From the NCBI GenBank assembly GCA_037501455.1, contig CM074864.1, forward strand, positions 33,878,001 to 33,942,000: a DNA stretch of 64,000 nucleotides, in the 5' to 3' direction. Origin of the DNA: Lantana camara (taxonomy: Eukaryota > Streptophyta > Magnoliopsida > Lamiales > Verbenaceae). Under the pieces are notes generated by a model. It was not told the DNA's origin and did not search any database. It saw only the letters and a program-made list of their open reading frames with translations. The stretch's first letter is position 1, and every line of letters starts with the position of its first letter. Below, piece by piece: positions 3,097 to 61,460 of the stretch. A program made the translations under genes and the position numbers.

Positions 3097-3220
3097 GACA
3101 CCCCCGTGTCTCATTTACTCATAAGAGGGAGACACGGGCGTGTCACACCTTCTGGGCAGCTCTGTACTGAGCCACGCCCGTGGCTCAGTTGGGCTAGGGT
3201 TGGTGACACCCCCGTGTCAC
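3097..3220 (+). repeat. Dyad array in LTR A5 (arms GACAC/GTGTC)
   Basis: Four short inverted repeats with 4-base G/C cores: GACACCCCCGTGTC (3097-3110), GACACGGGCGTGTC (3131-3144), GAGCCACGCCCGTGGCTC (3169-3186), GTGACACCCCCGTGTCAC (3203-3220). They stand out as GC-rich in AT-rich DNA. They lie between the first donor-like and acceptor-like sites. Confidence 0.9.
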
Positions 3221-3756
3221 TTCCCATGTGCAGTCTTTGTTGCTTCCTTTTCGGTTTTTGATTTGTTTCACCTCTTGAATGACCTTATCTCCTTTTGTGT
3301 TGAACTATGAACTTGTTTTGCTTTATTTTGGGAGCATTATGGTGTAATTTCATGGCATTTGGATGTGTTATAGGCATGCTTTTCCTTAATGCCGTTTATG
3401 TGTGTTTATATGTCGTTTATGAATCGCATCACTTATTTTCTATATCATAAGACTTCTTCTTGTTGTCAAACCTTGGATATATGCTATGTTATGTAATATG
3501 AAGTATGTGATAGCATTATGGAAGAGCTTGAACATGTTCTATGCTCCTATTTGAATTCTTGAATTATTGGATTGGAAATATGAATTGAATGATAATGAAT
3601 GAATGAGTGAATGACTCGGATATATGAGTTAAATGCCTTAATAATGCACATGAACGTTTTCATGACATGATTTTATGAGTGAGCATTGCCGTGCGTCATA
3701 TATGGTTCATTAAGAGTCTTGAGTCTCACGAACACGTCTTGTGGTCTTTTGTACAG

Positions 3757-3828
3757 TTTGTCTCCAGGGTGGAGAGCTTTTGATCGTTCAGGCACTTAGT
3801 GCTCGATCCTTGTAACTTCACGGTTCAG
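3757..3828 (+). other. Exon-like block E2 in LTR A5 (72 nt)
   Basis: Flanked by pyrimidine-rich TTTTGTACAG on the left and TTCAG|GTGAGG on the right. It contains CTCCAGGGTGGAG, which can fold. The same layout recurs in eleven other LTRs with blocks of 65-91 nt. That it is a spliced exon is inferred. Confidence 0.5.
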
Positions 3829-4034
3829 GTGAGGGTGGTTTTTGTTTTAGCTATGTAACAAACCCTACAACCCTTATGTGAAAAGCTTTGGCCAAAACCT
3901 TATGATTATATATATATGATTTTCAAATGGAGTTATCGAGTAAACCCTTTTCAAATGGATAATGATGGATATGGTATGATTCTTATGAATCAAATGTTTT
4001 GGCTAGAAAAGATTGATTGATTGATTGCACTGAT

Positions 4035-4255
4035 TGGGGCCCAGGGGCTTGGTGTGAGTGGGGACCCGAGGAGGCAAGGGCTGACGGTAAACCCTCACAC
4101 TAGTCCCACTATTGAACAGCGGTGCCGGACCTCGTCAGGAGATTGGCGGGGAAAGGGAGCTGAGTGCCATCTGGGGAATCATGTAACCCCTTTTTGGCCA
4201 ATGATTGGGTGGTCGGGCCTTGCAAACCCACCACCAACCCGGAGGAAGAAGGTTG
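4035..4255 (+). other. Conserved hairpin module in LTR A5
   Basis: Hairpin P1: GTGTGAG (4052-4058) pairs with CTCACAC (4094-4100) around GGCAAGGGCTGACGG (4073-4087). Hairpin P2: CGTCA-GGAGAT-TGGCG (4133-4148). It ends at an ACCCGGAGGAAGAAGGTTGG block shared by all these LTRs. Arms differ between LTRs and loops are kept. Confidence 0.7.
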
Positions 4256-5132
4256 GAACTTATTTATGATTGAAATGATTGATTGACTGATTGATTATCG
4301 ATTGATAGGCACTGTGCGGGAAGGCCGGGAATCGGATTGCCCAAACAATATATTTAGGACATGATTTATGGTCTGTGTGTATTATGATATTGCATGATCG
4401 CTTAATCAATATATTAATGATATTTGTCGTACACGGTCGGAGTTTGGATGGAGATTGTGCACGCTCACTCGCCGAGCCTTATATTTATGTATGATTTATG
4501 AATGTAATGAATTTAATATGAGTTAGTCGTAAAAGTCGAGCATTGTTTATCTATTTTCTTGCCCCTTTTGGGAACTAAATTCAAATAAAACCTTGCTCGG
4601 GATTTATGACTTGCATGTGCATGTTTTATATATATGTATCGCTCCTGCTCACTCAGTCTTCTAGAGACTGACCCCTCTCCCTCCCCACTCTTTTAGTGTG
4701 CAGGTTTGATCTTTGGAGTTTCGGGCTAGGCGGAGGTGTTTGAAGTCTTTAAGTGGTCGAGTTAGTTAGGAGAGTCCCTGCACTCATTTATGTATTGAAA
4801 TTATGTATGATTCATTCTATTATATCATGAACTTGAATATTTATATAATTGTTATTGAACTGACTTTACTAGGTTTTGCTATGATTTAAAAGAGGCCTGA
4901 AGAGCCCAAATTCTACTTATAGTTGGTATGATTGAACTTTGGCTTTGCTGCATTATATTTTGTGGATTGGTAATCATTGCAGGGTCTAGCTCCGCCTGGC
5001 TTAGGAAGGTTTTTATGTTTGTCTCCCGTTCGCTAGGGTTTGATACGGGTGCGGATTTACTGTTTCGTTACTCGTGTTGAGCCTTAGTGCGGGGGATGTG
5101 GCGCCTCACGTGCGGGGTGCTACATCCTTAAG

Positions 5133-5160: not shown

Positions 5161-7017
5161 TGTTCTTGAGTCGTGTTTGAGTCAGTTTGGTCGCACGGCA
5201 TAGGAACAACGTGTTAATATGTGCATTGCATCGTTTTGGCCTGTATATTTGACACCAATTGTTGGAAATTGCTTAATACATGTATACAATCTACGCTTTC
5301 ATTTAGATGCTTTAAGTGTTGCAATTTGCATTCTATGTGCCTTGATTCATTTAACTACGTGTCATAAGCATACGCTAATCTTCATGCATCCATATTTGAG
5401 TTGATCTTTCTTATATAGGTTACTATCATGCAAACAAAGCTACCATTCACACCAACTACAATTAAGAAGGTAACTTGAATGCCGAGTGTTCAAATGCCGT
5501 GGCGTGCACGATGAAACCACCTATCATGGCTCGTATCATGGGAGGAAGCTTGGATCACGGGAAGGTTCATCAATCTGGCCCTACCTACAAACCTTGAAGG
5601 TTCTCAACATACAAGAATTGCAAAGACTCAAGTTTCGACTTAAGGGATGTGTGAGACAACAAGAGGGGTGTGGAACTCTTCACCACCCCGATTTTGGAGA
5701 CATCTAATACAAGAGTAAATGCCCCAAGGTTCACCGTTGAAGCTCCGAGTTTGGAATGGTTGAGTGATTAGAAGGCCAAATTGGGAAGCTTCAAGGAGTC
5801 GGATACATGATGTGTTAAAAAGGGATTCGACTCAACTCAGATGCAAGGATTGGGAGCCGTTAATCACAAGGCTCATTATGAGGTGAAATATGGAAGCTCA
5901 CTTGATGCGAATATAAGCGTGGGACAACGAATGGACGCAAGGCAAAAGGGACTTATAAGCATCGAGGAATACAAATTACGTCATCTTCTTGGAACCTTGG
6001 AACATGGAGACATCAAGAAGCAAGCAAGAATGGAAAGCGTTATTATGGGTGAATTATGCGTGTAGATCGGAAACAAAGGATAAGCTAAAGGAACTTTAAC
6101 CGGAGGGGACATCAAGATGAAGATTTGGACGACCTTTGGAGGTTGATGCTTGGAAGTACGTTGAGGGGTAAACTCCATTGACAAATAAGATCTTGAGTTC
6201 AAGAATAGTACGTTCGGGCCATGGGATATACGAATGGATGAAGAAGATTAGGGAGATTCGAAGACCATGGAAAGCTAAGGAATTATTGATGTCTTCAAAG
6301 GAAGTTACAATCATGGGAATGAGGAACACGTCAGCAAGCTAAAAGCTTACCACCTCAGTGACAGGTTCTGCATATTCATGGCATAAGCATCATGCATCAA
6401 TTTAAATTAATTGCTTTCTGTATCTATATGTACGTTTATGTTTAATTATTATAATTCCTTCAACGTGTTGCATTGTTGCATCTTTGACTGTTTACTAAGT
6501 GTATTGGCATGTTAATCCAACATGCATGGCTTAGTGTTTAATTGATAGGGAATGACTCCACCTTGTTCATCAAGCTATTCATTAATCAAGGCTTACTCGA
6601 ATCAAGATGAGAAGAATAGTTGGGTTATATTTTGGAGTTCCGGGCATATAGCTTAGCTAGCACAATCTACACCGAAGAAACTAAGTTGAAGAGTTTTGGA
6701 GAAACCTTAATCTCAGAGGCGAAGTAACGAATTCAACTGAAACTTTCAAATAAGGGAGCTTTGAGTAGGAAATAATGTAAGTCCTTTTTGACCCTTGAAA
6801 GGATTATCTTTAGTTGAAGAATGGAAATACAAGAGGGGATTAAATTGGTCTCGATTTCAAGAAGAGAAAGAAAGAGAAGAGTTGGTGATTAGAAGGGAGA
6901 AATTATTGAAGGGTTTGAATTAAACCTTAGGAGTGAATTAAAGAAGCAGAAGTGGCTCAGCAAAAATTTCAAGGAAAGAAGGATTCATGGAGTTAGACAT
7001 GTAAGAGCGAAAAATTC

Positions 7018-7030
7018 TAAGGGGGAGAGC
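7018..7030 (+). promoter_or_regulatory. Internal PPT-like tract
   Basis: TAAGGGGGAGAGC after AAAATTC. Equivalent tracts are at 23515-23527 (D), 17058-17070 (B, minus) and 59780-59793 (L, minus). It resembles the terminal PPT but has no LTR start behind it. Confidence 0.55.
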
Positions 7031-8083
7031 ACGACCGAGAGGTGAGTTGGAGGATGGGAAAGGTGCTCGAATGAATATGTTAGGAGTAATAACGAGGATG
7101 CAAATTAAGAAGAATCTGGGAGTCCTAAGGGTGGTGATTAGGAATGAATAAGATGGTGCTTATGGTTAAGTTATTAAGAGGGAAGCTACGTATGGAATTC
7201 TGGTCGGGAGATAATGGAATCATAAGAAGGTTTCTATAGATTTCTAAGCTAGTATTAACAAGGGGGAAAATCAAATCAAGCTATCACATACGGGGATGGT
7301 GTCGGTCAAGATTTATTCAACGAAGTATGAAGGGGTCCAAGATAATATCATCGAGTTATTAGTTATATCAACGGTAATCTACAAGGAAGCTTAAGTAGAG
7401 ACCAAATGGAAAAAGGATGATAATTGGAGTATTGGTCTCAAATTTCAAGAATCATCAAGAACCTTCTATCTTCGGTGAAGGAAATATGGGACCAATTATC
7501 AAATATAACGTTAAGGGGGATCAAAAGGGAATGAACGGATAATGGGAACGGAAGGTGGGAAAAGATTTGTGTTGAGAGAGACTATAAGAATAAATCGTAA
7601 GGTTGGGATTAAATCATCAAGTTTGCTTAAGAGTGGTGATCCTCGGGGATATGTTAAGCACCGATTTGGATAAGGATTGAAGAAGTTGGGTAGCAGTACA
7701 AGTTAGAAAGGATTTAAGGATATAATCCTTAAGGAATTTACCAATCGTTTCGCCGGGGAACCCTGAAGAGGTTCACGACAAGTTGGGCACCGAGTTACAT
7801 TCAGGACAGATCATACCTTGGACAACGACAACTCACAAATCTGAATTTTCGCAACTACGGTGAACGGTACTTATAGCATTCATGATACATGCACCCATGC
7901 AAATTTAACTTTTATAATTTTTATGTTAGGTACTTTGATCTGTAATGTGTTAAATTACTTGGTGTAATTGAATATCTTTGTGGGCGACGTTTCTTACTTA
8001 CTTTGGGTGATTTCCGTGATTATAATCTTGGTTTTGCGTGAGTTGCCTGGGAGTATTGGAGACTCCCTTGTTTATTTTCGGTT

Positions 8084-8216
8084 GAGAGACGGGGATTCTC
8101 TTATTTTTGTTTGAGAGACGGGGTACTCTCTTTACTTGAGAGAGACGGGGTTCTCTCATTGCTGCTCGAGAGACGGGGCTCTCTCCTTGTTGCTTGTGAG
8201 AGACGGGGAATCTCTC
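8084..8216 (+). repeat. GAGAGA-CGGGG-TCTCTC hairpin array beside the 3' LTR of A
   Basis: Five units at 8084-8100, 8113-8130, 8138-8157, 8168-8185 and 8198-8216. Each is GAGAGACGGGG plus one to three variable bases plus (T)CTCTC, about 28-30 bases apart. The arms pair and the cores keep CGGGG. Related arrays are at 15845-16002 and 58364-58439. Confidence 0.88.
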
Positions 8217-8239
8217 ATTGTTTGCTTTCAGGCGTGTGT

Positions 8240-8275: not shown

Positions 8276-10083
8276 TATAACGCCCCAGTTTTTCAGTTTT
8301 AATAATGTGACGTATTTGTTTATAAATTGCGCAATTTAATTATTTAATTATATGATTAATTGTTTACAAATGTTTATATTTGATTCGAACTGTAAACTAT
8401 TGTTATTATAATCTAGTTCATTTTATTTCAACTTGATATTCAGTGTTTAACTTCTTAATTTATGTTTCGTGTTACCTTAACTATTTCGGTAATTTCATTA
8501 ATTTAATTTCAATATGTTATTAGTTGGTTTTAATTTAATTAATATGGAAATTAAGTTTTAGTAATTCATTTATAACAATATAAATTCGTTCATGCGCATG
8601 AGTGCTCTATTTGCGCTTCGTTCATATATGTAATGATATCGGATTGGTATGGAATTTTAGTATGTCGTAAATATGTGTGTTATGAACGTGCCTCCATGCT
8701 CGGTTTATGTTTTCGGATTCAATTGACGTGTTTATGAATTTAATTTTGATTGTGGAACCAAAGCGGGGGCTAACGAGCAATTAGCGCACCCTTGGTTCCG
8801 TGCGTGATATCTTGAGCTCGGGAATTCGGATTCAAATTCCGACACCTCCGTTGCCTTCGCATCGACGATTCGGAGACAATGGAACAAGCCTCATACCTTT
8901 TTGAAATCATTAAGACCTCCGAAATCCAACCGTAACGGACAACTCGTGCAAGAAGAACTCCTTTTGTTGACTAGTCTCCTTGGTGGGACCCTTTTTACTT
9001 AACCAAACCTAACCAAAGATTAACCATGACTTGTGTACCTTGGGTTAAGCCTTTTTCTTCCCCTTTAGCTCTGAAAAACCGAGAGAAATATCCCCCTTTT
9101 CTGCAACTACTGATCGAGAGAGAGAGATAGAGGAGAAGAGAGGAAAACTTGGCCAATCTTGTAATTTTGAGCTCAAATCACCTCCTTCTTTCGTCAAATC
9201 TACAAGGTATGAATATTTATGTCTTCTGTACTCTATTATGCTTTATTTCATCTATTTACAACATGATTTGGATCAGATTTGGTTAGGGTTTGAGTGTTGG
9301 GTTTTGTATGAACTTTTAGGGATTTTTGCTCTTGTGACCTATTTGCTTATGTAGCTGATTTCCTTGCTTGTAAACGAGTATATGAGCTTGTTTCTTGGCT
9401 TATTTCTTTCCTAACTGATGGTATATGATGTTAGGAGGATTTCTTCTCTTGCTCCTTTTATAAAATTTTGAGTGATGGAGCTCCAAACTTGATGTTCAAA
9501 CTGTTTCCCCTGTTTTCGAACTGCTGTGTGAGATTTGGTGTTGTTGCATGATCATATGGCCTCCATTTCGTGTGAAAATGCATGGAGTTGATGTACACTC
9601 ATTGTTCTATATGTTAGCATTCATGCTTTAAGTATTTGGTTCCATTTGAAGCCTCAAAACCGAAATACATGGCCTGTTTTATGCATTCTCCATGACAGAT
9701 TTGTTGCTGTTGCCTATGTGTGGTTGTTGGTCACCCTAATGTGCTTTAAATTGTACCATTTTGCATATATATGAAGTATATTAGTTTTTTAGTATGTTAG
9801 CATGCTTTCCCCAAAGTTTCAGATCCATATTCAAACCCTAAGTACTTGATCAAGGCATGATAGAATCATTAGGACTCATATGTCCGATTGTAGCGACCCA
9901 GTTTTGTTTCACGGTTTTGATGATCTTAACGTGTGATTTAGCTTTTTCACTCTAAATGAAAAATGTTCATAACATGCCAAAGTTCCAGAGCATTTGGAGT
10001 TCATTTGGTATGCCTTTGGATTGAGTTTGTTTGAGTTCAGTTTTGCCGGTTAGGTCTTGCATGCGCCTCAAGTTCTGTACCGT

Positions 10084-10207
10084 GACACCCCCGTGTCTCA
10101 TTTACTCATAAGAGGGAGACACGGGCGTGTCACACCTTCTGGGCAGCTCTGTACTGAGCCACGCCCGTGGCTCAGTTGGGCTAGGGTTGGTGACACCCCC
10201 GTGTCAC
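10084..10207 (+). repeat. Dyad array in LTR A3'
   Basis: Units at 10084-10097, 10118-10131, 10156-10173 and 10190-10207, identical to those of the 5' LTR. Confidence 0.9.
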
Positions 10208-10743
10208 TTCCCAAGTGCAGTCTTTGTTGCTTCCTTTTCGGTTTTTGATTTGTTTCACCTCTTGAATGACCTTATCTCCTTTTGTGTTGAACTATGAACT
10301 TGTTTTGCTTTATGTTGGGAGCATTATGGTGTAATTTCATGGCATTTGGATGTGTTATAGGCATGCTTTTCCTTAATGCCGTTTATGTGTGTTTATATGT
10401 CGTTTATGAATCGCATCACTTATTTTCTATATCATAAGACTTCTTCTTGTTGTCAAACCTTGGATATATGCTATGTTATGTAATATGAAGTATGTGATAG
10501 CATTATGGAAGAGCTTGAACATGTTCTATGCTCCTATTTGAATTCTTGAATTATTGGATTGGAAATATGAATTGAATGATAATGAATGAATGAGTGAATG
10601 ACTCGGATATATGAGTTAAATGCCTTAATAATGCACATGAACGTTTTCATGACATGATTTTATGAGTGAGCATTGCCGTGCGTCATATATGGTTCATTAA
10701 GAGTCTTGAGTCTCACGAACACGTCCTGTGGTCTTTTGTACAG

Positions 10744-10815
10744 TTTGTCTCCAGGGTGGAGAGCTTTTGATCGTTCAGGCACTTGGTGCTCGATCCTTGT
10801 AACTTCACGGTTCAG
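10744..10815 (+). other. Exon-like block E2 in LTR A3' (72 nt)
   Basis: Follows TTTTGTACAG (AG 10742-10743) and precedes GTGAGG (GT 10816-10817). Confidence 0.5.
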
Positions 10816-11021
10816 GTGAGGGTGGTTTTTGTTTTAGCTATGTAACAAACCCTACAACCCTTATGTGAAAAGCTTTGGCCAAAACCTTATGATTATATAT
10901 ATATGATTTTCAAATGGAGTTATCGAGTAAACCCTTTTCAAATGGATAATGATGGATATGGTATGATTCTTATGAATCAAATGTTTTGGCGAGAAAAGAT
11001 TGATTGATTGATTGCACTGAT

Positions 11022-11243
11022 TGGGGCCCAGGGGCTTGGTGTGAGTGGGGACCCGAGGAGGCAAGGGCTGACGGTAAACCCTCACACTAGTCCCACTATT
11101 GAACAGCGGTACCGGACCTCGTCAGGAGATTGGCGGGGAAAGGGAGCTGAGTGCCATCTGGGGAATCATGTAACCCCTTTTTGGCCAATGATTGGGTGGT
11201 CGGGCCTTGCAAACCCACCACCAACCCGGAGGAAGAAGGTTGG
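11022..11243 (+). other. Conserved hairpin module in LTR A3'
   Basis: P1 arms 11041-11047 and 11083-11089 around GGCAAGGGCTGACGG (11062-11076). P2 is at 11120-11135. Confidence 0.7.
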
Positions 11244-12111
11244 AACTTATTTATGATTGAAATGATTGATTGACTGATTGATTATCGATTGATAGGTACT
11301 GTGCGGGAAGGCCGGGAATCGGATTGCCCAAACAATATATTTAGGACATGATTTATGGTCTGTGTGTATTATGATATTGCATGATCGCTTAATCAATATA
11401 TTAATGATATTTGTCGTACACGGTCGGAGTTTGGATGGAGATTGTGCACGCTCACTCGCCGAGCCTTATATTTATGTATGATTTATGAATGTAATGAATT
11501 TAATATGAGTTAGTCGTAAAAGTCGAGCATTGTTTATCTATTTTCTTGCCCCTTTTGGGAACTAAATTCAAATAAAACCTTGCTCGGGATTTATGACTTG
11601 CATGTGCATGTTTTATATATATGTATCGCTCCTGCTCACTCAGTCTTCTAGAGACTGACCCCTCTCCCTCCCCACTCTTTTAGTGTGCAGGTTTGATCTT
11701 TGGAGTTTCGGGCTAGGCGGAGGTGTTTGAAGTCTTTAAGTGGTCGAGTTAGTTAGGAGAGTCCCTGCACTCATTTATGTATTGAAATTATGTATGATTC
11801 ATTCTATTATATCATGAACTTGAATATTTATATAATTGTTATTGAACTGACTTTACTGGGTTTTGCTATGATTTAAAAGAGGCCTGAAGAGCCCAAATTC
11901 TACTTATAGTTGGTATGATTGAACTTTGGCTTTGCTGCATTATATTTTGTGGATTGGTAATCATTGCAGGGTCTAGCTCCGCCTGGCTTAGGAAGGTTTT
12001 TATGTTTGTCTCCCGTTCGCTAGGGTTTGATACGGGTGCGGATTTACTGTTTCGTTACTCGTGTTGAGCCTTAGTGCGGGGGATGTGGCGCCTCACGTGC
12101 GGGGTGCTACA

Positions 12112-12116: not shown

Positions 12117-12178
12117 AAATGCATTCTTGTCCTCTTTGATTTACTGTTTCCAGCTAGGTCCTGATATGGGCTGTTACA
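12112..12178 (-). mobile_element. Fragment X, right part
   Basis: Resumes the sequence interrupted by element A. Read on the minus strand it begins TGTAACAGCCCATATC at 12178, the likely 5' end of an LTR. It abuts the truncated end of LTR B. Confidence 0.5.
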
Positions 12179-12829
12179 TACACACTCGCTAAGTTAGGCG
12201 GGAGCTAACTTGCAACCAAAGAGACAAAACCATAGAACTGATACTAGTGCGGAAGTAAAGTACAATCATAAATGCAAGATAAGCAAAGAGTGACGGGTTC
12301 AACTAACATAAATACCTAGTCCCGAAGTTCATACATAAATCATAAATCAAAATTTCACAATTCACGGGTTCAACTATCCCTAGAAGCCTGTCCCGAATAT
12401 CACAAAGTATAATCCTAATATTTCATACATTCAATGCATAGCTTAATCAATTACAATATGCATGTAATGTGACTCAGACTTGACCACACGACATGACAGA
12501 CCCAAAATCCCGCCTAGCACTCCAAACCTGCAAAAGAACTGAAAACAAATCCGGGTTCAATCTATAGGAGACTGGTGGGTATAAAACAGGGTTTAATGTT
12601 ATAATATTACAAGAATTTAAACACTCACGCATGTAAGCTATAATCCCCGTGCGAGGTTTTTAAAATATTTCCCAAGTGGGTGAAAATAAAATAAAACAAC
12701 ACTCGGGATTACAACAATCAATATCATTCATTCAATCATTCATGAGGTCAATACGTGAGCACGGCGAGTGGGCGAATTCTCCAACCTCCACCTCATGTGT
12801 GCGTTTATTCATGTATTCGTTCATTAATG

Positions 12830-12930
12830 ATCACACAATCATTCATTCAGTCACAATCATTCGTTCATTTGTTCGTTCATTCATTCATTCATTCATACAT
12901 TCATGCATTCATTCAATCAATACACTTACA
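12830..12930. repeat. (CATT)n-like simple repeat
   Basis: Imperfect TCAT/CATTCATT tetramers inside LTR B. Overlapping ORFs from 12676 to 13003 translate this repeat and are not genes. Confidence 0.8.
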
Positions 12931-12939
12931 CATTCTTCC

Positions 12940-13170
12940 TCCGGGTGGTGGATGGGTTAGCAAGACCCGACAACCTCAATCATTTACCAAAGGGGTGTCA
13001 TGAGATCCCAAAAGGCGCACAACCCCCTTCTCTCGCTAATCTCCTAGCGAGTTCTGAAATCTGTAATTTGGTTGGGACTAGCACATAGGATCACCATTGG
13101 CCCTTGCCTCCCCAGATCGCCATATATACCAATCCCCGGGCCCCCATATGTGCAATCAATCAATACTGGC
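12940..13170 (-). other. Conserved hairpin module in LTR B
   Basis: P2 is a perfect hairpin: CTCGCTA, a hexamer loop (GGAGAT on the minus strand), TAGCGAG (13032-13051). P1 arms read TGGTATATA and TATGTGCTA in LTR sense, pairing with G-T wobbles around GGCAAGGGCCAATGG. Confidence 0.7.
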
Positions 13171-13331
13171 CAAAACATTAGGTAAGGTATTCATAAAAGA
13201 AAAAGGGGTTTTAACAATCAATATCATAGACTCCTTGAAAACGACTCAATATAAATATATACTTACTTTGGCTTAAAGCATACACATTGAGGGATATTGG
13301 TCATTATTTAGCTAGTAGAAAATAAACTCAC

Positions 13332-13405
13332 CTGCAGGACACAACCAAGGAAGAAAGAAGACTTGAGAATAACCTATGAACCCGGCATCTGCGCCCTGGA
13401 GAAAA
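13332..13405 (-). other. Exon-like block E2 in LTR B (74 nt)
   Basis: In LTR sense it follows CTTTGTACAG and precedes GTGAGT. It contains TCTCCAGGGCGCAG, like the A block. Confidence 0.5.
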
Positions 13406-13900
13406 CTGTACAAAGGACAATGGAATGAATTCATGAGACCCCAGACTCCAAATGAACCATATAAGACGCTCGGCAATGTAATGAACATGATAGGAATGCA
13501 TAAAAGATGATATTATGTCATGAACACGTTCATGTGCACTATTAATGCATTTAAATCATATAGAGACAAGTCATTCATTCGTTCAAGGAAGAGTTCATAA
13601 TATTTCAAGTTCATAACTTCATATTTCATAACAAATAAATCCAAGAATTCCATATAGAAATCATAACACGTACTATTTCACGTTTACAATTAGAAAATAG
13701 ACAAATAGAGGCATTCAAGTTATGAACGAAAATTAAATAATGCGAAATAGATAAAAATTAAATTCTATAATTTAAATAAAATAAATAATACATAATATAG
13801 ATATAATAAATCATGCAATTAAATAACATTTAATATCATAACAAAATATATATATAATATATAGATATATTCCTAACATATAATACATATATAATATGCA

Positions 13901-13903
<3 letters not shown>

Positions 13904-13958
<55 letters not shown>
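13904..13958. repeat. (AT)n microsatellite
   Basis: About 55 bases of alternating TA inside LTR B, between its first donor-like and acceptor-like sites. Confidence 0.95.
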
Positions 13959-13959
<1 letters not shown>

Positions 13960-14252
13960 GTATATACACGCACAAACACCACTAATGCATGCATTATCTA
14001 ATTAAACTCATGCATGCAATACACTATACAGAAAATACATATTTATATATATATATCATGCACACGTCCCATGCATACATCACATGAAATATATTATATA
14101 CACATATATATATGCATTACACACACATACACCTCATATATTTATATATATACACTTATTACAGCAGTTAATTAGCAACAAAAGAAGAATGCAGTAGTTC
14201 CAGGCAAAAAACAGAACATCACACACGCACAGAACAAGCTGAAGAAGAAGAA

Positions 14253-14378
14253 GGTAACGGGCGTTCATCTGAGCAAGAAAAAAATAGGTAACGGGCGTTA
14301 AGAGCCACAGGAGATCCTCACTCCATGGTAACGGGAGTTACCAAATGCACAAGGAATCGGGGTAACGGGCGTTACCCC
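14253..14378 (-). repeat. Dyad array in LTR B (arms GGTAAC/GTTACC)
   Basis: Units at 14253-14266 and 14287-14300 (right arm incomplete), GGTAACGGGAGTTACC (14327-14342), and a 20-base unit with arms GGGGTAAC/GTTACCCC and core GGGC (14359-14378). Confidence 0.88.
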
Positions 14379-15782
14379 GTGAATCTCCTAAATTTGCAGC
14401 AGTTCGGACTCCCCTGTTCCTAACCTCCATAGCAGCAGCAACATCAGCAGTTGAGGGGAAGGAAAAATGGGACAACAACAACAACACAAGCTCACAAAAA
14501 CTCAAGGAAAAGATGAACTAAAACTTCCCAAAATAAACCGGCAACAACACAGCAACACAACGAGGAAGGAAGAAGGAGAAAAGCTTGAAAATTCATAACC
14601 TCCATTAATGGAAACTCACCAAAATCTTAACCAACAACTAATGCATGTATACTCAGAAATAATTGAGGGAAAAGGATCACATATAAGTCATCAAATCAAG
14701 TTATATCTCAAAGGAATTCAAGAATTCAACAATTCTCCATTTAACCTAACTATTCATCATTTCTTCAAAACATCACGAATATAGCCTCAAAATTAGGGAT
14801 GCATAGATCAAAATGACCACAAATGAATGTATAACACAACCCTAAACTCACCTTGTGGATTAGATGAAGGTTGGAAGAGATTTGAGCTCCAAAATCTCCT
14901 AAAATGTCAAAGTGACGGGAAAACTGGAAAAACAGGGGTTTGTGGCTGAAATTCTTGCTTGTGTGAGGGTGGGTTCAGTTGGGAGAGAGTATGCGATGAA
15001 ATTGGGCTGAACTAGGGTTACAAGGACTCCAACCATAGTTAATTTGTTTAAGGTTTGAAAAAGTTATGGCCTTTTTAGTAAAGTGTGGCAGTTTTGGCAC
15101 CGTTTCGTTTTTCGGTTGGATTTCGGAGGTCCAAACGATTTTGGAAAAATATGAGGCTAAGCTCATTAAACCTGAATCTTCGATAGGAGTTCAAAAAAGT
15201 TGACGGAATTCGAATCCGAGTTTCCGAGCTCAAGATATCACAGACGGAACCAAAGGTGCGCTAATTGCTCGTTAGCCCCCGTTTTGAATTCCAAGATCAA
15301 AATAAATTCGTTACCATGTCAAACGAGATCAAAAACAAGAAACGAGCATATATACATGTTCATAACACATAAATGTAGAACATACTAAATTTTCACAAAA
15401 ATTCGAATCAAATCATATTAGAACGAAGCGCGTTTAAATCATGCAAGAACAATACATTGACAATTCATAACATTTCAAATTAAATAAACAAATTTAAATT
15501 CTATTTTTAAATTAAAACAAGGTCAACGATTAATGTTGTAATTAATTAGTATAATTAACGATATAATTAATTATCATTAACACTTAATTATCAAATTAAG
15601 CATTTTAATTAATGTAATAAAATAAAATAATAAAATGAAATAAAATAAACTAATAACAATTTATATTAAAATTAAATATTTAAAACACTTACAAACAATT
15701 AATCACATAATTAAATAATTTAATTGCACAATTTATAAACACATACGACATATTAGTACAAATGAAAAACCGGGGTGTTACA

Positions 15783-15818
15783 ACCTCTCCCCCTTTAAAC
15801 GAATCCGTCCTCGGATTC
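15783..15818 (-). promoter_or_regulatory. PPT and AGGA-loop hairpin of element B
   Basis: On the minus strand, GAATCCGAGGACGGATTC (15801-15818) and then a TTTAAAGGGGGAGAGGT tract reaching the LTR start at 15782. Same order as in element A. Confidence 0.82.
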
Positions 15819-15844
15819 ACTACTCGACCGAAAAAAAAAACAAA

Positions 15845-16002
15845 GAGAGACTCCCCGTCTCTCACAAGCAACAAGGAGAGAGCCCCATCTCTCGAGCAAT
15901 AATGAGAGAACCCCATCTCTCACAAGCAAAGAGAGCACCCCGTCTCTCAACCAAAGATAAGAGAGTCCCCGTCTCTTATAAACAACGAGCACCCCGTCTC
16001 TC
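15845..16002 (-). repeat. GAGAGA-CGGGG-TCTCTC hairpin array of element B
   Basis: Six units at 15845-15863, 15876-15893, 15904-15921, 15931-15948, 15961-15977 and 15987-16002. On the + strand they read GAGAGA plus CCCCGTCTCTC or CCCCATCTCTC. Spacing 26-31 bases. The last two are slightly shortened. Confidence 0.87.
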
Positions 16003-19650: not shown

Positions 19651-19772
19651 GACACCCCCGTGTCTCATTTACTCATAAGAGTGAGACACGGGCGTGTCAC
19701 ACCTTCTGGGCAGCTCTGTACTGAGCCACGCCCGTGGCTCAGTTTGGCTAAGGAAGGTGACACCCCCGTGTC
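19651..19772 (+). repeat. Dyad array in LTR C (arms GACAC/GTGTC)
   Basis: Units at 19651-19664, 19685-19698, 19723-19740 and 19759-19772. They stay intact while the flanks have diverged from A. Confidence 0.9.
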
Positions 19773-26707: not shown

Positions 26708-26710
<3 letters not shown>

Positions 26711-26749: not shown

Positions 26750-26751
<2 letters not shown>

Positions 26752-33869: not shown

Positions 33870-33884
33870 CCTGTCAATAAACAC

Positions 33885-53990: not shown

Positions 53991-55288
53991 TGTAACGTCC
54001 CGGTTCCGAATGAATAGGTAAGCATCTCTAAATTATTATTTTCTACTTGTCATCATAATTTTATTAAATTGCATATCATTATATTTATGCGAATTATGTG
54101 AATTTATATCATTTGAGAATTTATTTCATGACTTGGAAAATGAGTGTTACGTGAAATAATTGCTGGAAATGAGTTAATTGCCAATTTGTCCCTACTTGCT
54201 CATTCTTTTAAATTTAAGGGCTAAATTGCATAACTTTTCCATGGACTTAATTGATCATTTGGCAAACTATTTGTACTTGATTGCATGACTGACTAAGTGG
54301 GAGGATTGAGTTGCAATTTGTGCATTTCACACATTTGAAAATGGTGAATCACGGTATATCACCTCCTCCATGCTTCCAAGATCATTTTCATGAAAATTCA
54401 CCTACATATTTGCTTCTTTCTTGTTCTCGGTTCATCTGAGGAAAAAGGGAAAGAGAGTTCAAGCTTTGAAGCTTAATCATCATCTCCATCTTCTTCTTCC
54501 ATTTCTTTTCTTTCAAGGTGGGTATATGCATGGATTATCGGTTTGTGATGATTTATGGGATAGATAGGGTTTCAGATTTCTTGAAGTAAATGGATTAATT
54601 GTTGTGTGTTACATGGATATATGATTTTTCCTTGGATTAATGCATGAATTCATGGAAAATTTGAGCTTAAATGATTAATGTGTGCATGAATTTGAAACTC
54701 TTGATTCCTGGTGATTTTTTATGTTTTAAGTGTTTATATGGAATATTATTGTACCTTGAACATATATACATCTTATTTCCCAGAAAAACTTGCATTTGAT
54801 GATTGAAACTTGATTTTTGAGTTGCTTTCTTGTTGTTGTCGAGAGCTTCCCCTGCTTCTGCTCTGTTTTTTCAAGTTGCAGTAGCTGGGAACGACCCTTC
54901 CCGCTTCAAGTATATTATGGGAACGGCCGTTCCCACGCTTTTGAATCAGAGCTGGCGAGCGAACATGGGAACGGCCGTTCCCATTTTGGCCTGCGAGCCG
55001 GAAGGGCCGTTCCCAGCTAAACGCGCCTTTTAATTTTATAAAATGCAGGGATGTTTTTGGGAGGCATGGGAATGGCCCTTCCCATTTTACACTAAGGGCC
55101 AGAACGGCCGTTCCCAGGCCTACGACAGAACAAAAGCTACTGCGTAAAAATTGGATTTTGAGATTTTTATCCAATGATTTCTTTGATCCCAAATTGCTAT
55201 TATATGATTGATTACATGCTAAAACAAGATATTTTCATGCCACATTGTACATTGCTTGTCATCTCGTTGCATTTTCGCCGTTCGTCAT
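53991..55288 (+). mobile_element. LTR K, 3'-truncated, same family as solo LTR G
   Basis: Starts TGTAACGTCCCGGTTCC. Donor TCAAG|GTGGGT (GT 54518), dyad array, then CGCCGTTCGTC as in G before LTR L replaces it. ORFs of 67 and 139 aa (54773-55192) arise from the palindromic array. Confidence 0.85.
54885..55113 (+). repeat. Dyad array in LTR K (arms GGGAAC/GTTCCC)
   Basis: 54885-54900, GGGAACGGCCGTTCCC at 54917-54932 and 54967-54982, GGAAGGGCCGTTCC (55000-55013), GGGAATGGCCCTTCCC (55068-55083), GAACGGCCGTTC (55102-55113). The same five- or six-unit order as in G, including the aberrant GGAAGGG unit. Confidence 0.9.
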
Positions 55289-56019
55289 TGTAGCACCCGG
55301 AACACCGAGATGCCACACCCCCGTACTATAGCTCAGTCCACATACGAAATGGATGATCCGTACATGAACCAAAACTATAGCGAACGGGTGACAATGCAAG
55401 AAACAATCTAGCTAGGCGGGACTAGACCCCAATTCAATTAAATCCAATACATGAAAATTCGAAAGCGGAAGTATAAACACTAACATTTCAATATCATATA
55501 CTAAATATCCAAAAGCTCATCCTACTCTAGCTCATATATCAACACATTATCATCTCCAACCTATTACACATCCAAAAGTCTCCAAAACTAACAGGAACCC
55601 TAACATGATAAAGGCGAAAATACCAAGAACATGAAAATGCGATGCTAGACTTAGCTGAACAAAAGACACAACTCGGACTCCCGCCTAGCACACGACCGTG
55701 AGTACCTGAAAAGTGAGGGTGTCAGTCTACAGAAGACTGAGTGAGGGGTTTAAATAAATATAAGCGCAATTACCATCCAAGCTATAATCTCGGGTAAGTT
55801 TTCATAAAAGAAACAATATAAGTTCAAATATTAAAGTAATTCTCGCCCGAGATTACAACTAAGCAATTTAATAATTCAATCATAATCAATTCAATATGTG
55901 GCCCGGCGAGTGAGGGCAATTCTCCAACCTTTCTCCAAAAGTGTACAATCATGAGGGTTTCAATTTATTGGTTATCATGCAAGTAATTACGTGCGATCAA
56001 TTAGCAATTTCATGAACTC

Positions 56020-56235
56020 CTTCTTCCTCCGGGTGATGGTGGGCTTGTAAGACCCAACCATCCAATCATGGTGTACGTCGGGAACATGACTCCCACGCAC
56101 AGGATTTCTTCCTCCACCAACCTCCTGGTGGATTCAGAGGTGATCCCACATGGTGAGGATAGTGCAAGAGTTACCCGTCAGCCCTTGCTTTCCCGGTTGG
56201 CTTAATACACTACCCTCGGGGCCCAATGTGAACAT
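56020..56235 (-). other. Conserved hairpin module in LTR L
   Basis: P2: CCACCA, loop GGAGGT on the minus strand, TGGTGG (56114-56131). P1 arms at 56161-56170 and 56201-56211 around AGCAAGGGCTGACGG (minus). Confidence 0.75.
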
Positions 56236-56409
56236 TCTTACTCGCCAAATCAATCAATAAATCAATAACATGGCTTGCTTGATTCAATACAATAACATGG
56301 CTTGCTTGTAATAGTTTTAGATTGGAAAACTATAGATATAAATATACATTTTGGTCGAAAACGTCACATAGGGTTATATGGTTCTGTATATCTAGAAATT
56401 AAACCTCAC

Positions 56410-56483
56410 CTGACGAGTGACAGAACAAGACAAGGATACAAGAAAGTGCCCAAACGATCCATGATCTCCGCCCTAGAGAAAAA
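56410..56483 (-). other. Exon-like block E2 in LTR L (74 nt)
   Basis: Between TTTCTTGTCTAG and GTCAG|GTGAGG on the minus strand. Starts TTTTTCTCTAGGGCGGAG, clearly related to the A, B and C blocks. Confidence 0.5.
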
Positions 56484-57190
56484 CTAGACAAGAAAGGGAA
56501 TAGTGGAAACCCGTGAGACGAGACTCAATATGAGACCAAGTATGACGAACGGCCATGCTCATTTAAATAAATAAAATAACCAATGAAGTGACACTTAGCA
56601 TGTATGAAAACCAATTAACACCTAAGAGGTGAAATTAATATCAAGAAATCATATATTCATATTATTCAATTATATCAAGTTCAATTCATGTAAGGCATGG
56701 AGTCACACAATCATGTTTGAGCAATTAAGTACCAAGAAGTGTCAATTAGGAGCACACTTATCAATTAATCAAGTATATGTATCATATAATTCACATATGA
56801 GAGCCAAGAGAGGGAAAGGAATGCAATAAGAAAGGTTTTGGTGAAGTTTGGCGAAAATGGACAATTTTAGGAAACGCACACGCTGTAGGAAAACTGGAAT
56901 ATCTTTAATTTTATAAGTGGGAATTGAGTTGTGATTGTTTTTTATGAAACTAGACGCAAATAACTTTCCGATGATATATGGCTCGTTTTCTAGTTCAAAG
57001 TGAGGAGAAAATGGCATAAGCTTGAAGTTAGGCGAGTGCAGTTTGTCGGGAAAGTGGTGACACCTAAAAGAATTGATTATATCTCACAAACTAGAAAAGA
57101 TATTGTGGTGATTCCAATTGGAGAGTGTTCTACACTTCAAGATGTTTCCAACGGCTCACACTTCAAGTCAATCGAAGTTCGGATGAGGGG

Positions 57191-57313
57191 GTACCCAGCT
57201 GGGTAAATTTCAAGTGAAAAATCCCCCGGCCGGGTAAAGTGGTCCAGAAACTTTTCGGGATAAAAGTAGCCGCCCGGGTACTTTTTATGCACAAAAAGTA
57301 CCCGCCCGGGTAC
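57191..57313 (-). repeat. Dyad array in LTR L (arms GTACCC/GGGTAC)
   Basis: GTACCCAGCTGGGTA (57191-57205), CCCCCGGCCGGGT (57223-57235), GTAGCCGCCCGGGTAC (57266-57281), GTACCCGCCCGGGTAC (57298-57313). The last two are joined by a perfect GTACTTTTT/AAAAAGTAC stem around ATGCAC (57278-57301). Confidence 0.88.
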
Positions 57314-58295
57314 CCTTCCAGGGCTGGAAAAAGGGGCAAAATAGGGGGTTCACGGAAAATGGCTCCCAAGCCATTTAAACACCAAATCAATGCAAGAAAT
57401 CAACTCAAAACTATCATATAACATGTATATAACTTAAATACTTCATTTAGACATCAAACAAACCATCAAATATGCATCAATCATCAAGGAATCATCATTC
57501 AAAACTCCATATATTTTCATGTCTTCCAACCTCCATATAGTTCAAGGATTCATGCAAGCCACCAATTCTCTTGAACGTAATCATGCTTCTAACCTCAAAT
57601 AAACAAGGAATCACATCCAACTCATCAAACCCTACTCAACTATATCTCAAGAGATGCATATAATTAATCCATCTATACCTCAAAGAAATGAAGAAGATGA
57701 GCAGGGATGATATGATGATGCTTCACTTATGCAAATCCTCCTTGAATTCTGGCTTGGGAGATGATGAAATCCCTCTCCTCCTTCCTTGGTGTAAATACCG
57801 TGTATTAGTGTGTGTGTGTGTGTGAGAGAGAGATTTCTTGATGAAATGAAATGTATAGAATGAGAGAGAAGAGATGCATATAAGGTATATTATATCTCCC
57901 ACTAAATGAATGAATCATCATTATTTGCACTTAAGTCCTTGAATTGTTTGAGTGGATGCAATCAAGTTTCATTCCAAGAAAATTGATCAAATAGCTTCAA
58001 CTCATGTTATGCAATTAAGTCCATATAATTAGGAAGTGATCAAGTAAAGTCATGTAGAAGCATTTAATCACTGATCAAGTATATAATGCATATAATATCA
58101 TGAAAGTTATAAATAAATAATTAAAATAATTCTCAAGTTAGGGAAAATGATCAATTAAAGACAATTAATCAAATAAGACATGTTCGGCAGTTATTTCACA
58201 TAATTTCGCACGTTAACAATAATTTCATGGAAACAATTAGTAATATAATATCACATAATATCATGTAATGTATAATTGAAAATTGGGGCGTTACA

Positions 58296-58332
58296 ACTCT
58301 CTCCCCCTTATGAGGACCTGGTCCTCAGGTCC
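58296..58332 (-). promoter_or_regulatory. PPT and AGGAC-loop hairpin of element L
   Basis: On the minus strand GGACCTG-AGGAC-CAGGTCC (58314-58332), then TAAGGGGGAGAGAGT up to the LTR start. The stem sequence differs from A and B; the loop is kept. Confidence 0.82.
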
Positions 58333-58363
58333 ATTCTCGAGTTCTAACTCTAAAACAAGCGGC

Positions 58364-58439
58364 GAGAGAGCCCCGTCTCTCGATCAAGCAAAGAGAGAAC
58401 CCCGTCTCTCAAACAAGCAAAGAGAGAACCCCATCTCTC
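58364..58439 (-). repeat. GAGAGA-CGGGG-TCTCTC hairpin array of element L
   Basis: Three 18-base units at 58364-58381, 58393-58410 and 58422-58439, exactly 29 bases apart. Confidence 0.88.
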
Positions 58440-61190
58440 AAACAAGTAACACACAACCTAGGTTCAAATGAATAAACATCACACAAACCGTCACATGAGG
58501 AAAAGGTAACAGAAATTAGATACACTAATTAATTATACAAAATACAATGAATACGATCAACCATCAAAGAACTTAGTATCATAAAATTCTTTAAATTTGA
58601 GTTACGTATATGCATATGCCATGAATGTTCGATGTACCGTTCACCGTGCTTCGGGAATCTTCCATGGTAGTGATCCGTCCAACACTTGATTTGAGGTTGA
58701 AGATTTCCTTACCCAAAATATCAAGCATTGGATCCCCGATATCCCAATACTTAACTGATAATTCAATCCTGCCTCCATAATCGATCATCTTATCCTAAGC
58801 ACCAAGGTCGAATTTCCCTATCTTAAGTGATATTAGTTCTATTCCCCATTCTTCACCACGAACTGTGCTTGGACTTCTTGAATACTCGAATTAGTCTTTG
58901 GTAGCTTAGATTCAACCTCTAATCCAATAAGTATTCTCTGTTCATCACATAAACAACTGACGAGTCTGTAACCTGTTTTGTTCATGTGAGGGGTTATCCC
59001 CTAAATCCTTCACTTCTCCAAATCACTCCTAATTTCCTTGGATGCTCGGCCTATCCTTCAGTAGCTCAAATCTTCGTATTCAATTTTTCATCATACCTAT
59101 TTGATCCTGGAAAAATGACTGACAACCCGGTAACTCATCTTGTTCATCTAACACATTTTCAACTAAGTATTCCATTTCCAAAATTATTTGAATTAACTAC
59201 CATGTGATCCCTTGCAATATATGATGATCCCGTCAAGCCACAGTTATCTCGCACCCTTATAATAGTGCAGCACCTTTTTGATCCTTTCGCGTAGATCTTG
59301 AATGACAATTGCTTTTCGTGTAGAATTCTCATTTATGATCAAAGTATGTTCACTCTACTTGTAGAAACCATTAACTCTCCCATTTCTCATCAAATTTCTT
59401 TTCGTTTTAGCTCGGCTTAAGATATGCCTCCTTGTGGCTTTAGAAATCTCTATTTGAGAACTTTAGGCGCATGAGATTTAAGATATTGAAGACTTCGTTC
59501 ACATAGTTCCTAAGTTGGAAATCGAGACAAGCACTAAATCTACCATTCTATCCCAAATACTCACCTCCGGTTCTTGGAGCACCTAGCCTTCTCTGAAATT
59601 ATTCTCACAAAATTTTTATTCAAATCTTGAAGGTCATCAGGTGTCAAAGTCTTCTAATCCTTTCCGTTCTCCATTTCCAAGAAATCCCGTTGTTGATAAC
59701 TCTTGCATATTTTTTTTTTCCTTCTATTGAAAGTAACCCATTTGGGCCCATCAATAACTTTATAGTCATTTCCTTGGTCGACTCTCCCCCTTAAGAATGC
59801 CTATTCTTACCCGTTGGCTTGTAACATCACTTCTTAAATTGAAAGTTCTCAATTCCCTAAAGTTAGCTTCCTTGGTATAAGTGATTCTGACCACGCCACT
59901 TAGCCGAAAATTTTCTCACATTACTTTTGCAACTATCGGTAGGAACAACAACCCACTTCTACCAATCTAACTCTCGGCTATTTCTTTGGCCTCTAAATTG
60001 CTCTTCCTCTTTTATTCTTTTCCAACCCCATTAATTTCTTGTCATAATTTGGTTATGTCTCGGTTGAAGTAATGCTTGATACATGAATTGGGGAGAGTTC
60101 CTATCAAGATAACACTTAACAATGCATGTTGGGTTAAGAGGCCAATGCATGTGTCACACTTGTAAATAATAAATACACAAGTTGGAAAAATTACGCTCAA
60201 TTAAGAATGCATATATAATTAAAGAAATTTAAATAATTTAAACAATGTATTATGCACGTTGTAATGCCCTAATTTCCAGAAGTTCAGGTAAGCACTCCAC
60301 GAGCGGGTCTTCGGGAGTTGGGAGGTTAAAATTACCTGTTTGTTTATTTAATTGCAAATTTCATCATATTACTTGCCTTATGTTCCCATACATTTATATG
60401 AAATGCCTTTATATGAATTATATGAAATAAGTGAAATAAGTGATATACTTATATTATATGAGCCTTAATTGCTTCCTTATGTGAAATTGTGTAATTAAAT
60501 ATATATCATGACTTGGAGATAATTGCATTATTTGTTAGAGATTATATCTAAGTGCATTAATTTAAATAAGCAAGGGACTTTTATGCAAATAGGGATGAAT
60601 CACATATTTCCATAGAAGACTTTAGAATATATCACTTAATTCATTTTAGTTCTTCAATTGTGTTCCAAGAACAAAGAATACACACACATACACCTAGCAA
60701 ATGTCGGTTTTTACACCTTGAGAAGACGAAGAAGATATCAACCATAATTCAAGCTAGAATTGAAGGGAATTGTGAAGTAGGAGCATCATCAACCTCATAT
60801 CATCATCTCATCACCATCCCTTTTTTATTCAAGGTAGGAATTGGAAAATTTCATGAAATTCTTGAATATGTGATCAAGTATGAATTTAGGGATTTGTTGA
60901 TGAATTCTTGCATGATTGAAGTTGAGAGCATGATCTTGATCATAAGGAGTAAGGATTGCATGAAAATCTTAAAATTATTGAGGGTTGGAAGCATGTTCAT
61001 ACATGAGGGTTTCATGATTTTTACCACTTTGATGCTTATTTCTTGGTTGAATTGATGAATACTTGAAGTATGATGTATATTTGATGATATGAAGCATTTG
61101 TTATTGTTGGAATTTGATGTCTTAATTGTTTGGATTGATTTTTGCATGAAAACCCCTATTTTCTCCCCTGCCTTCTGCTGCTACACGTGC

Positions 61191-61460
61191 GGTCGCGCCC
61201 GTGACCTGTTTTACATATAAAAAAGATCGCGGCCGCTACCTCATTTTGGCCCAGTTTTGAGATTTTGCAAAAATGGAAGAAAAATTCGGCCAAAATAGGG
61301 TGGTCACACCCGCGACCCCTTTTCCAAAGAAAATGGTTGTGCCCGCGACCCATTTTTTGGCAAGTTTCGAGATTTGAAAAAATTGGATGAAAATTCGGGC
61401 AAAAATACCCAGCCGCGACCGCGACCCATTTTATGCATGATTTTGGTCGCGACCGCGACC
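61191..61460 (+). repeat. Dyad array in solo LTR M (arms GGTCGC/GCGACC)
   Basis: GGTCGCGCCCGTGACC (61191-61206), GATCGCGGCCGCTACC (61225-61240), GGTCACACCCGCGACC (61302-61317), GGTTGTGCCCGCGACC (61335-61350), AGCCGCGACCGCGACC (61411-61426), GGTCGCGACCGCGACC (61445-61460). Six units, several with C-to-T type decay. Same arm word as solo LTR F. Confidence 0.88.

Follow-up and report, generated by a model that had tools for sequence, protein, structure and literature searches.

Paired palindromes with word-linked spacing in LTRs of Ty3/gypsy-type retrotransposons of Lantana camara: putative arrays of doublet binding sites

The U3 repeat boxes of plant copia elements such as Tnt1 and Retrolyc are subfamily-variable cis-regulatory arrays that are not known to have a palindrome-doublet design. 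Bousios et al. reportedly observed in 2016 that palindrome-rich cis-regions in maize Sirevirus LTRs are small-RNA hotspots, and the VANDALs, which we return to below, are DNA transposons. The closest described system is the RM box of the Sireviruses (Ty1/copia, SIRE/Maximus; Bousios et al. 2010, PMC2829016), which the RM section of that paper terms Sirevirus-specific, as against classic Ty1/copia elements. Passages of PMC10760457 describe arrays of sometimes palindromic cis-repeats in plant copia elements. An earlier note on a window of the 1.27-Gb Lantana camara genome (the whole 64,000-nucleotide stretch analysed here) had reported GC-cored dyads in giant LTRs and knew of no named LTR feature with such a form; RM boxes, as presented in the RM section of PMC2829016, do have it. 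Here we report that these dyads are arranged as doublets, the main rule, which was absent from that note.

We take the LTRs that carry the dyads to be Ty3/gypsy, of the Tekay/Del chromovirus type. Open frames for gag and for protease with the start of RT (31896-33896, minus strand), lying between LTRs H and E, gave Retrotrans_gag, Ty3_capsid and RVP_2, which places that element, truncated early in its RT domain, in Ty3/gypsy; the remaining LTRs are linked to it by LTR similarity only. Traits of Tekay/Del-type LTRs were found, namely a Met-tRNA primer-binding site (TGGTATCAGAGC at 5133, after LTR A1, with further sites at 34073 on the minus strand after H and after an LTR piece ending at 45580), TG..CA-type termini (TGTAACGCCC..GGTGCTACA-like) and 5-bp target duplications (CTAAC at F, ATAAC at G, TAAAC at J). 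Apart from gag-pol, no open frame in the window exceeded 161 amino acids, no complete pol frame was found in any of its elements, and Pfam gave no match for five smaller open frames. Searches of viral_contigs returned no Gag relatives, and none of the 25 pattern matches there could be aligned with the window by BLAST at 1e-5; one 21-base pattern had no match in genome_contigs.

Dyads were present at all 12 LTR positions previously listed, a few units being decayed, although the count per LTR was 4 or 6 rather than the 3-6 claimed. Two doublets of the word TGACAC, with centre gaps of 34/40/34 bp, lie in LTR A1 (1274-5124; cluster 3096-3219, plus strand), in its 99% copy A2 (8276-12111; 10083-10206, plus) and in C (18170-21810, 5' end lost; 19650-19773, plus). 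LTR B (about 12121-15782, 3' end uncertain; 14253-14376, minus), whose left arm has decayed in two units, differs from A in its word, GGTAAC, and has identical gaps (34/40/34); in a direct A-B alignment the dyads were not in register, so that their one-to-one descent rests on the equal spacing. GGTCGC marks the solo LTR F (23934-26645; 25542-25700, minus; 33/77/33) and, in three doublets, M (60260-62982; 61191-61460, plus; 34/77/33/76/34), while GGGAAC forms three doublets each in the solo LTR G (27132-29794; 28113-28338, plus; 32/46/32/67/33) and in K (53991-55288, 3' part lost; 54887-55115, plus; 32/48/32/69/32). ATCCAC is the word of E (31288-31407, minus; 31/41/32), an LTR interrupted by F and G and lacking its 5' end (pieces 26646-27131 and 29795-31991, with 23802-23933 inferred), and of H (34082 to roughly 37755, its 5' end being uncertain; 36137-36255, minus; 30/41/32). 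The word is GGACAC in J (38174-41247; 39858-39989, minus; 32/52/32), where the fourth unit (39865) is decayed, and GTACCC in L (55289-58295; 57191-57313, minus; 32/44/31). Further GC-cored dyads (GAGAGACGGGG..TCTC, period about 28 bp; 8084-8220, plus) make up a second array in the internal linker directly upstream of a purine tract and the 3' LTR A2, and the word of this array recurs in front of B and L.

Within a doublet the centres of the two mates are separated by 30-35 bp, and doublets lie 37-77 bp from each other. In nine LTR lineages the spacing was 32.7 bp within pairs (sd 1.0, n=21), with one further value of 30 from LTR H, and 56.4 bp between pairs (sd 15.5, n=12), the latter without helical phasing. 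Among 28 clusters (27 places, L029 being the same place as L028) the unit number was even in 26 and three in the remaining two, one of which, window L, has a fourth unit in another listing; clusters held 3-10 units, or 4-8 per LTR, the 10 occurring at L053, whose LTR termini could not be located. The pitch went with the word: in these clusters, near copies included, it was 34 in 15 of 15 cases for GGTAAC and 7 of 7 for TGACAC, 31-33 in 26 of 26 for GGGAAC (21 of them at 32) and 30-32 in 9 of 9 for ATCCAC. For GGTAAC the sample is biased, the six clusters of this word outside the window having been found by word search. A pitch of 35 also occurs (L027, L032 and the genome listing); L027, with an extra weak unit, and L032, with one unit missing, failed the cluster rule and lie outside the 28, and both show gaps of 34-35. 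Of 73 gaps of 25-38 bp, four (37, 37, 38 and 38) fall between doublets and five connect units called as different words, with a weakly matching unit involved every time. Missing units account for the non-alternating gaps in L033 (107, 47, 34) and window L (75, 32). Spacers within doublets were self-complementary at 54 of 155 positions, compared with a permuted mean of 42.0 (reached in 25 of 2000; A2 dropped); spacer symmetry was rejected as a design principle, since E, H, F, M and L contribute most of the excess and A, B, C, G and K show none.

The dyads far exceeded chance expectation: against 50 dinucleotide shuffles, the window contained 46 whose 5-bp arms match perfectly around a GC-rich core of 4 nt (mean 14.7, max 23) and 27 whose arms are 6 bp long (mean 3.84, max 9). 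A word-free scan for adjacent same-word dyads found 60 pairs, compared with a mean of 3.5 (max 7) in 30 local shuffles; they were located in the 12 clusters, apart from one in the linker array (8148/8176) and a scattered minority that were themselves mostly AT-rich. Twenty-four additional genomic stretches of 10 kb, picked by position and in 20 cases taken from the initial 25 Mb of five contigs, contained 58 same-word pairs, whereas 20 shuffles gave 0-2. Other tandem repeats make up a small part of the 58 (L038, L051 near 5200, L055), and in L036 tandem repeats occupy the expected cluster position. Doublets were present in 12 of 12 window LTRs that keep the relevant region; at least four LTR pieces with 3' parts only (41.4-42.5, 43.9-45.6, 47.2-48.7 and 37.76-38.17 kb) and the piece at 1-286, an LTR 5' end only, were unscorable. 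That every giant LTR carries the dyads does not hold elsewhere in the genome. A search for duplication-flanked LTRs found five, of which J, F and G in the window have doublets and two intact-looking ones in the sampled stretches have none, so that some families do without the module. LTRs O and Q were discarded as counterexamples, their 5' halves reading as copia LTR sequence with ends that we take to be copia-like.

The two arms of a dyad have changed together, as had been proposed: the covariation score was 0.702 versus 0.200 when shuffled (0 of 500 reached 0.702) and at most 0.186 when partners were slid. Nine LTRs supplied the 42 units of this table, with A2, C and H left out as near copies, and the cells of the table are not independent because the units of one LTR have a common word. 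Coarser measures did not discriminate (two-sided-change pairs, 5 vs 5.2; further pair types, 14 vs 13.2). Genome-wide, one core variant of each of two words occurred 15,128 and 4,421 times (reversed controls 0), whereas the half-and-half word, differing from each by a single base, occurred 163 times with any core (control 86), which again indicates that both arms change together; in 304 kb, same-word units outnumbered chimeric ones 57 to 2. Arms were 83% identical among units of one LTR and 47% between LTRs, and the 8-bp flanks of units in one LTR were 40% identical (shuffled flanks 31%). Between G and K, dyads were 91% identical compared with 60% for spacers and 59% for flanks (Fisher 1.4e-7 and 1.8e-10), and dyads were also conserved above spacers between F and M. 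E and H showed no extra dyad conservation (dyads, spacers and flanks 95%, 98% and 96%), which is what one would predict for the pair of LTRs belonging to a single element. The arms had been called family-specific, which does not hold strictly: the word follows clades and is reused across lineages, and two-word clusters exist. An element-specific code is too strong a description, since words recur across LTR lineages and mix at one locus. Two fetched loci carry two-word arrays: L034 is a mosaic LTR, with two lineages joined inside the cluster, and L053 shares its two-word module, with no other alignment of at least 150 bp between their searched parts.

In our preferred reading, which we consider about as likely as not, the clusters are arrays of doublet binding sites for a dimeric DNA-binding factor and belong to the control region of the Tekay/Del-type LTRs. 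A single dyad would comprise two inverted 6-bp half-sites 10 bp apart, leaving room for a protein dimer, and the 30-35 bp pitch, approximately three turns of B-DNA, would put two dimers nearly on one face for cooperative binding, two or more doublets making up a control module. The half-site word would select the binding protein, which could be a transcription factor of the host or a factor carried by the element, with the pitch going with the word, and the likely benefit would be element transcription or shelter from silencing. Of the element-specific recognition code suggested earlier, the notion that the word is read in trans gains support, arms being alike and flanks not, and among the candidates named there a DNA-binding site fits best. 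New words may arrive as whole arrays when co-packaged LTR RNAs recombine within the cluster, the old array being lost afterwards. Self-complementary spacers, which E, H, F, L and M show in some of their doublets, would be superfluous under a pure protein-site model. A promoter adjoining the cluster was sought and no conserved TATA was found: six of the 11 LTRs (A1, C, J, F, M, G) had no TATA[AT]A in the 400 bp downstream, B, E and H had nothing but TA-rich runs, and K and L had single distant sites, that of K falling in the neighbouring LTR L. The position of the clusters in U3 upstream of the promoter is therefore an assumption.

The dyads might instead serve host silencing, their transcript hairpins feeding small-RNA production, as has been suggested for the palindromes of maize Sireviruses; the palindromes would then perhaps be costly and retained only for a cis-function. 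The clusters fold far better than shuffles (z from -2.9 to -11.2 for 12 sense segments and from -3.1 to -12.5 for seven of them in antisense), the doublets of E, F and M and the first doublet of A are each predicted to form a single longer hairpin, and parts of PMC5311732 and PMC10760457 describe Sirevirus palindrome regions as small-RNA hotspots. A silencing target would be expected to be lost, yet the dyads are conserved in G versus K, and a fixed, word-linked pitch is not predicted, making this reading unlikely. It is quite unlikely that the dyads act at the RNA level, as genomic-RNA hairpins for dimerisation, packaging or strand transfer, even though GC-cored palindromes can form stems and kissing contacts, a common word would permit kissing between copies and one word per array would follow naturally. 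Core orientation is mixed both within and between LTRs, Rfam returned no family at gathering score, and one-sided arm changes gave 12 G-U vs 11 A-C among 300 arm pairs in 50 units (A2 dropped). The equal folding of both strands and the lack of a G-U excess point to a site in double-stranded DNA rather than to an RNA element and speak against the kissing or dimer signal raised before.

Origin without function, as by-products of snap-back copying, inverted duplication or template switching in reverse transcription that recombination homogenises, would account for the inverted-duplicate doublets in K, the duplicated blocks of M (flank identity 0.49) and E (0.59) and the mosaic L034. We nevertheless consider it very unlikely, as arms match within an LTR while flanks are nearly unrelated, the G-K and F-M comparisons show dyads better conserved than spacers, and the pitch stays constant while inter-doublet spacing drifts. 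Least probable in our estimation is a DNA-structure signal, in which cruciform-prone sites are preferred template-switch or crossover points selected for LTR shuffling. The lineage junction inside the L034 cluster and the presence of that locus's module at L053 fit this, but the evidence amounts to two loci, and complementarity alone should then count, yet the word is kept across units and the pitch is word-linked.

The doublet-site reading bears closest comparison with RM boxes. As in the RM section of PMC2829016, we found short palindromes repeated in the upper LTR half, with a CG-rich core, CpG richness in most clusters and linker-domain copies, and one sequence per element in highly similar copies that differs among elements; the RM definition, a palindromic motif repeated in the LTR with one consensus per element, describes the Lantana clusters. 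CpG observed/expected, a simple ratio calculated with no island caller, exceeded 0.9 in 6 of 9 clusters and was 0.44-0.80 in A, E and L. RM boxes number at least 8 copies per element, counted as one LTR plus linker (PMC2829016); the 4 or 6 units of the window LTRs would give at least 8 if both LTRs of a two-LTR element are counted. Unlike RM boxes, the arrays here have Ty3/gypsy carriers, a Sirevirus origin being ruled out by Gag for the sole element with a readable Gag, and show strict doublets and word-linked pitch, which the RM section of PMC2829016 does not describe. Where that paper gives a CGG-CCG core, the core here is mostly C-NNNN-G (31 of 42 units; CGNNCG 22), with CGGCCG itself in 7 of the 42; no conserved TATA was found close downstream, and two-word arrays and a mosaic are present. 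The maize Sirevirus cis-regions, as far as the cited passages describe them, are likewise fast-changing, hairpin-capable palindromic LTR regions, in copia rather than gypsy elements. Like the VANC targets of Arabidopsis VANDAL elements in the portions of PMC5735166 that treat them, our clusters are arrays that diverge strongly between related elements and would have matched-protein readers; there, however, VANC is element-encoded and the targets are described as tandem repeats, and no such protein was seen in our window. Searches of open-licence PMC papers brought up no account of arrays like these in gypsy/Tekay LTRs, and a similar feature is known from Sireviruses and apparently not from this plant Ty3/gypsy group.

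If the doublets are binding sites, they offer a direct handle on the proteins that activate or shield elements counted among the most numerous in this large plant genome, word and pitch together predicting a footprint, and palindromic LTR arrays would not be peculiar to Sireviruses. The two-word loci suggest a route by which a parasite could swap its control word without a broken intermediate. Possible, though more tentative, is a modular address system of doublet operators, with few words each having its own pitch, lineage-specific matched proteins and cassette exchange on LTR recombination, two-word loci being switching intermediates, in a design that would have arisen separately in Sireviruses and Ty3/gypsy.

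Long LTRs nested in one another make up the window (C10:33,878,001-33,942,000 of a 1.27-Gb genome, which the relatives of its Gag-Pol mark as that of a plant), and the twelve that bear dyad clusters fall by LTR similarity into two groups, one comprising A1/A2, B, C, E, H and J and the other F, G, K, L and M, with TGTAACGCCC..GGTGCTACA as the common end type. The Gag and protease between LTRs H and E are of Ty3/gypsy type, the remaining LTRs being linked to this element by LTR similarity alone, and a Met-tRNA primer site lies directly after A1 and H. The clade is putatively Tekay/Del, a name that goes by the primer site, the ends and the length of the LTRs rather than by a tree. LTRs F, G and J are bordered by 5-bp target duplications; F (23934-26645) and G (27132-29794) are solo LTRs inserted into E, an older LTR, and at the site of F's insertion LTR H keeps uninterrupted sequence. 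At 42491-43887 and 48761-49815, two copies of an apparently copia-type LTR occupy the places where two gypsy LTRs would be expected to have their 5' halves. The 3' halves of LTRs (e.g. 4200-5124, 24000-25200, 28500-29794) contain long conserved non-coding blocks with a hairpin-like word, CAGTCT..AGACTGA, present in both LTR groups.

Dyads were present in 12 of 12 LTRs and far outnumbered those of shuffled sequence; the three to six per LTR given in the earlier note resolved into four or six, a few of them decayed. Each dyad has two inverted 6-bp arms flanking a 4-nt core, which was G/C at three or more of its four bases in 41 of 42 units. The dyads are paired into doublets, with centre gaps within a doublet (the pitch) of 31-34 bp (mean 32.7, sd 1.0, nine lineages; H adds a single 30) compared to 40-77 bp (sd 15.5) between doublets in the window LTRs. 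LTRs A and B share identical 34/40/34 gaps despite different words (arm sequences), and their dyads are not in register in a direct alignment. We scored 28 clusters, 12 from the window, 6 from a GGTAAC search and 10 in 24 sampled stretches, which held four units (13 clusters), six (11), eight (one), ten (one) or three (two). Short and long gaps alternated in 26 of the 28, with units missing in both of the others (L033, outside the window, and, in that run, window LTR L). The doublets are a genuine feature of these LTRs, highly abundant and precise in construction. Inverted doublets were seen in K alone, where doublets one and two together make a 54-nt inverted repeat (81%) at 54882-55019; K has a unit-1 change that is mirrored in unit 4, and G carries the unit-4 change without that in unit 1.

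Across these 28 clusters, pitch is linked to word. In counts that take in near copies, the pitch was 34 at all 15 GGTAAC and all 7 TGACAC gaps, 33-34 at 5 of 5 GGTCGC gaps, 31-33 at 26 of 26 GGGAAC gaps (two between-doublet gaps of 37 set aside) and 30-32 at 9 of 9 ATCCAC gaps (two gaps of 38 set aside). A GGTAAC pitch of 35 also occurred in L027 and L032, loci dropped from the 28 clusters. The first 100 exact GGTAACGGGCGTTACC matches in the genome listing gave 28 neighbour gaps of 200 bp or less, which fell at 34-35 (10), 79-83 (9), 113-115 (5) and 49, 95, 160 or 163 (4), the main classes being the sums expected from 34 and ~46.

Comparison of LTR pairs showed dyads 91% identical between G and K, compared to 60% for spacers and 59% for flanks (Fisher 1.4e-7 and 1.8e-10). 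The corresponding identities were 81/65/54% for F and M, an alignment left imperfect by one extra doublet in M, and 98/92/89% for A1 and C (p 0.014 against flank); between E and H (95/98/96%) the dyads were not conserved in excess. Within one LTR, arms were 0.83 identical, unit flanks 0.40 and shuffled flanks 0.31. Since arms agree and flanks do not, recent block duplication does not account for the shared word, except in part in E and M. The proposal that both arms change together held up, with a covariation score over 42 units of 0.702 compared to 0.200 after shuffling; units made of two known 5-base words in 304 kb carried the same word in 57 cases and were chimeric in 2. Genome-wide, GGGAACGGCCGTTCCC occurred at 15,128 or more places and GGTAACGGGCGTTACC at 4,421 or more, reversed controls giving 0, and the chimera GGGAACNNNNGTTACC, with any core, at 163 compared to 86 for its control. 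In each arm the GGGAACGGCCGTTCCC and GGTAACGGGCGTTACC words are a single base apart, so the asymmetric step between them was not seen in amplified form; chance together with the decay of symmetric sites could account for the 163 places.

Folding beat shuffles in 12 of 12 sense segments and in all 7 of those refolded antisense, with similar z-scores. One-sided changes among 300 arm pairs comprised 12 G-U and 11 A-C, and cores were found in both orientations. As both strands fold alike, G-U about equals A-C and core orientation is mixed, a double-stranded DNA site is favoured, on small numbers and a signal diluted by post-insertion decay. With 10 bp between half-site centres and some three helix turns between dyads, such a site would fit two dimers on one face. 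A putative word-reading protein would impose one word on all units, joint change of arms and a word-linked pitch, and is the simplest cause of all three; the function of the doublets is inferred.

The earlier note had described the arms as family-specific and present in every giant LTR. Words and LTR clades do go together in general, but close relatives can differ: B (GGTAAC) and H (ATCCAC) are 63% (3' part) and 70% (5' part) identical with wholly different words, and F (GGTCGC) and L (GTACCC) differ in word beside a 267-bp stretch at 80% identity adjoining the cluster. Clusters of these words occurred in 7 of 24 sampled stretches. Searching for LTRs of this type with flanking duplications gave five: doublets were present in J, F and G, all three of those in the window, and neither L039 48-4017 nor L035 1020-3206, both in the sampled stretches and of the same end type, has one, so "every" was too broad. 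Two loci outside the window mix words: in L034 two doublets of GGGAAC precede two of ATCCAC, and L053 has two GGGAAC and three ATCCAC doublets. The LTR that holds the L034 cluster has its two ends (5192-7783); a search for LTR ends at L053 found none. Alignment shows the L034 LTR to be mosaic: the GGGAAC lineage (G, K, L050, L051; 61-64%) matches parts of 5591-6149, LTR E matches 6197-6425 (64%), and 6381-7783 matches both J (60%) and another LTR in L054 (65%), the lineage junction falling within the dyad cluster. The two-word module is common to L053 and L034 at 66.6%, with no further alignment of 150 bp or more in the parts searched. These two loci suggest that a word may be replaced in one step, a second array being gained and the first lost.

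A tandem array of GAGAGACGGGG..TCTC (period ~28-29 bp), whose repeat is itself a GC-cored dyad, lies immediately 5' of the purine tract and 3' LTR at 8084-8220 (plus strand), ~15790-15970 and ~58290-58450 (both minus strand), and at ~925-1060 and 6885-7005 of L055, a stretch outside the window. Its word is the same in elements with different LTR words, and the array is reminiscent of Sirevirus linker motifs and multiple PPTs. Palindromic LTR arrays were already known; the gypsy carrier, doublets, word-linked pitch and two-word loci appear to be new here. The nearest known feature is the Sirevirus RM boxes (PMC2829016), reported there to be located for the most part in the LTR's upper half and to be followed by a TATA box; their regulatory role is said in the same paper to need experimental confirmation. 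VANC targets (PMC5735166) offer a precedent for arrays that change along with their reader.
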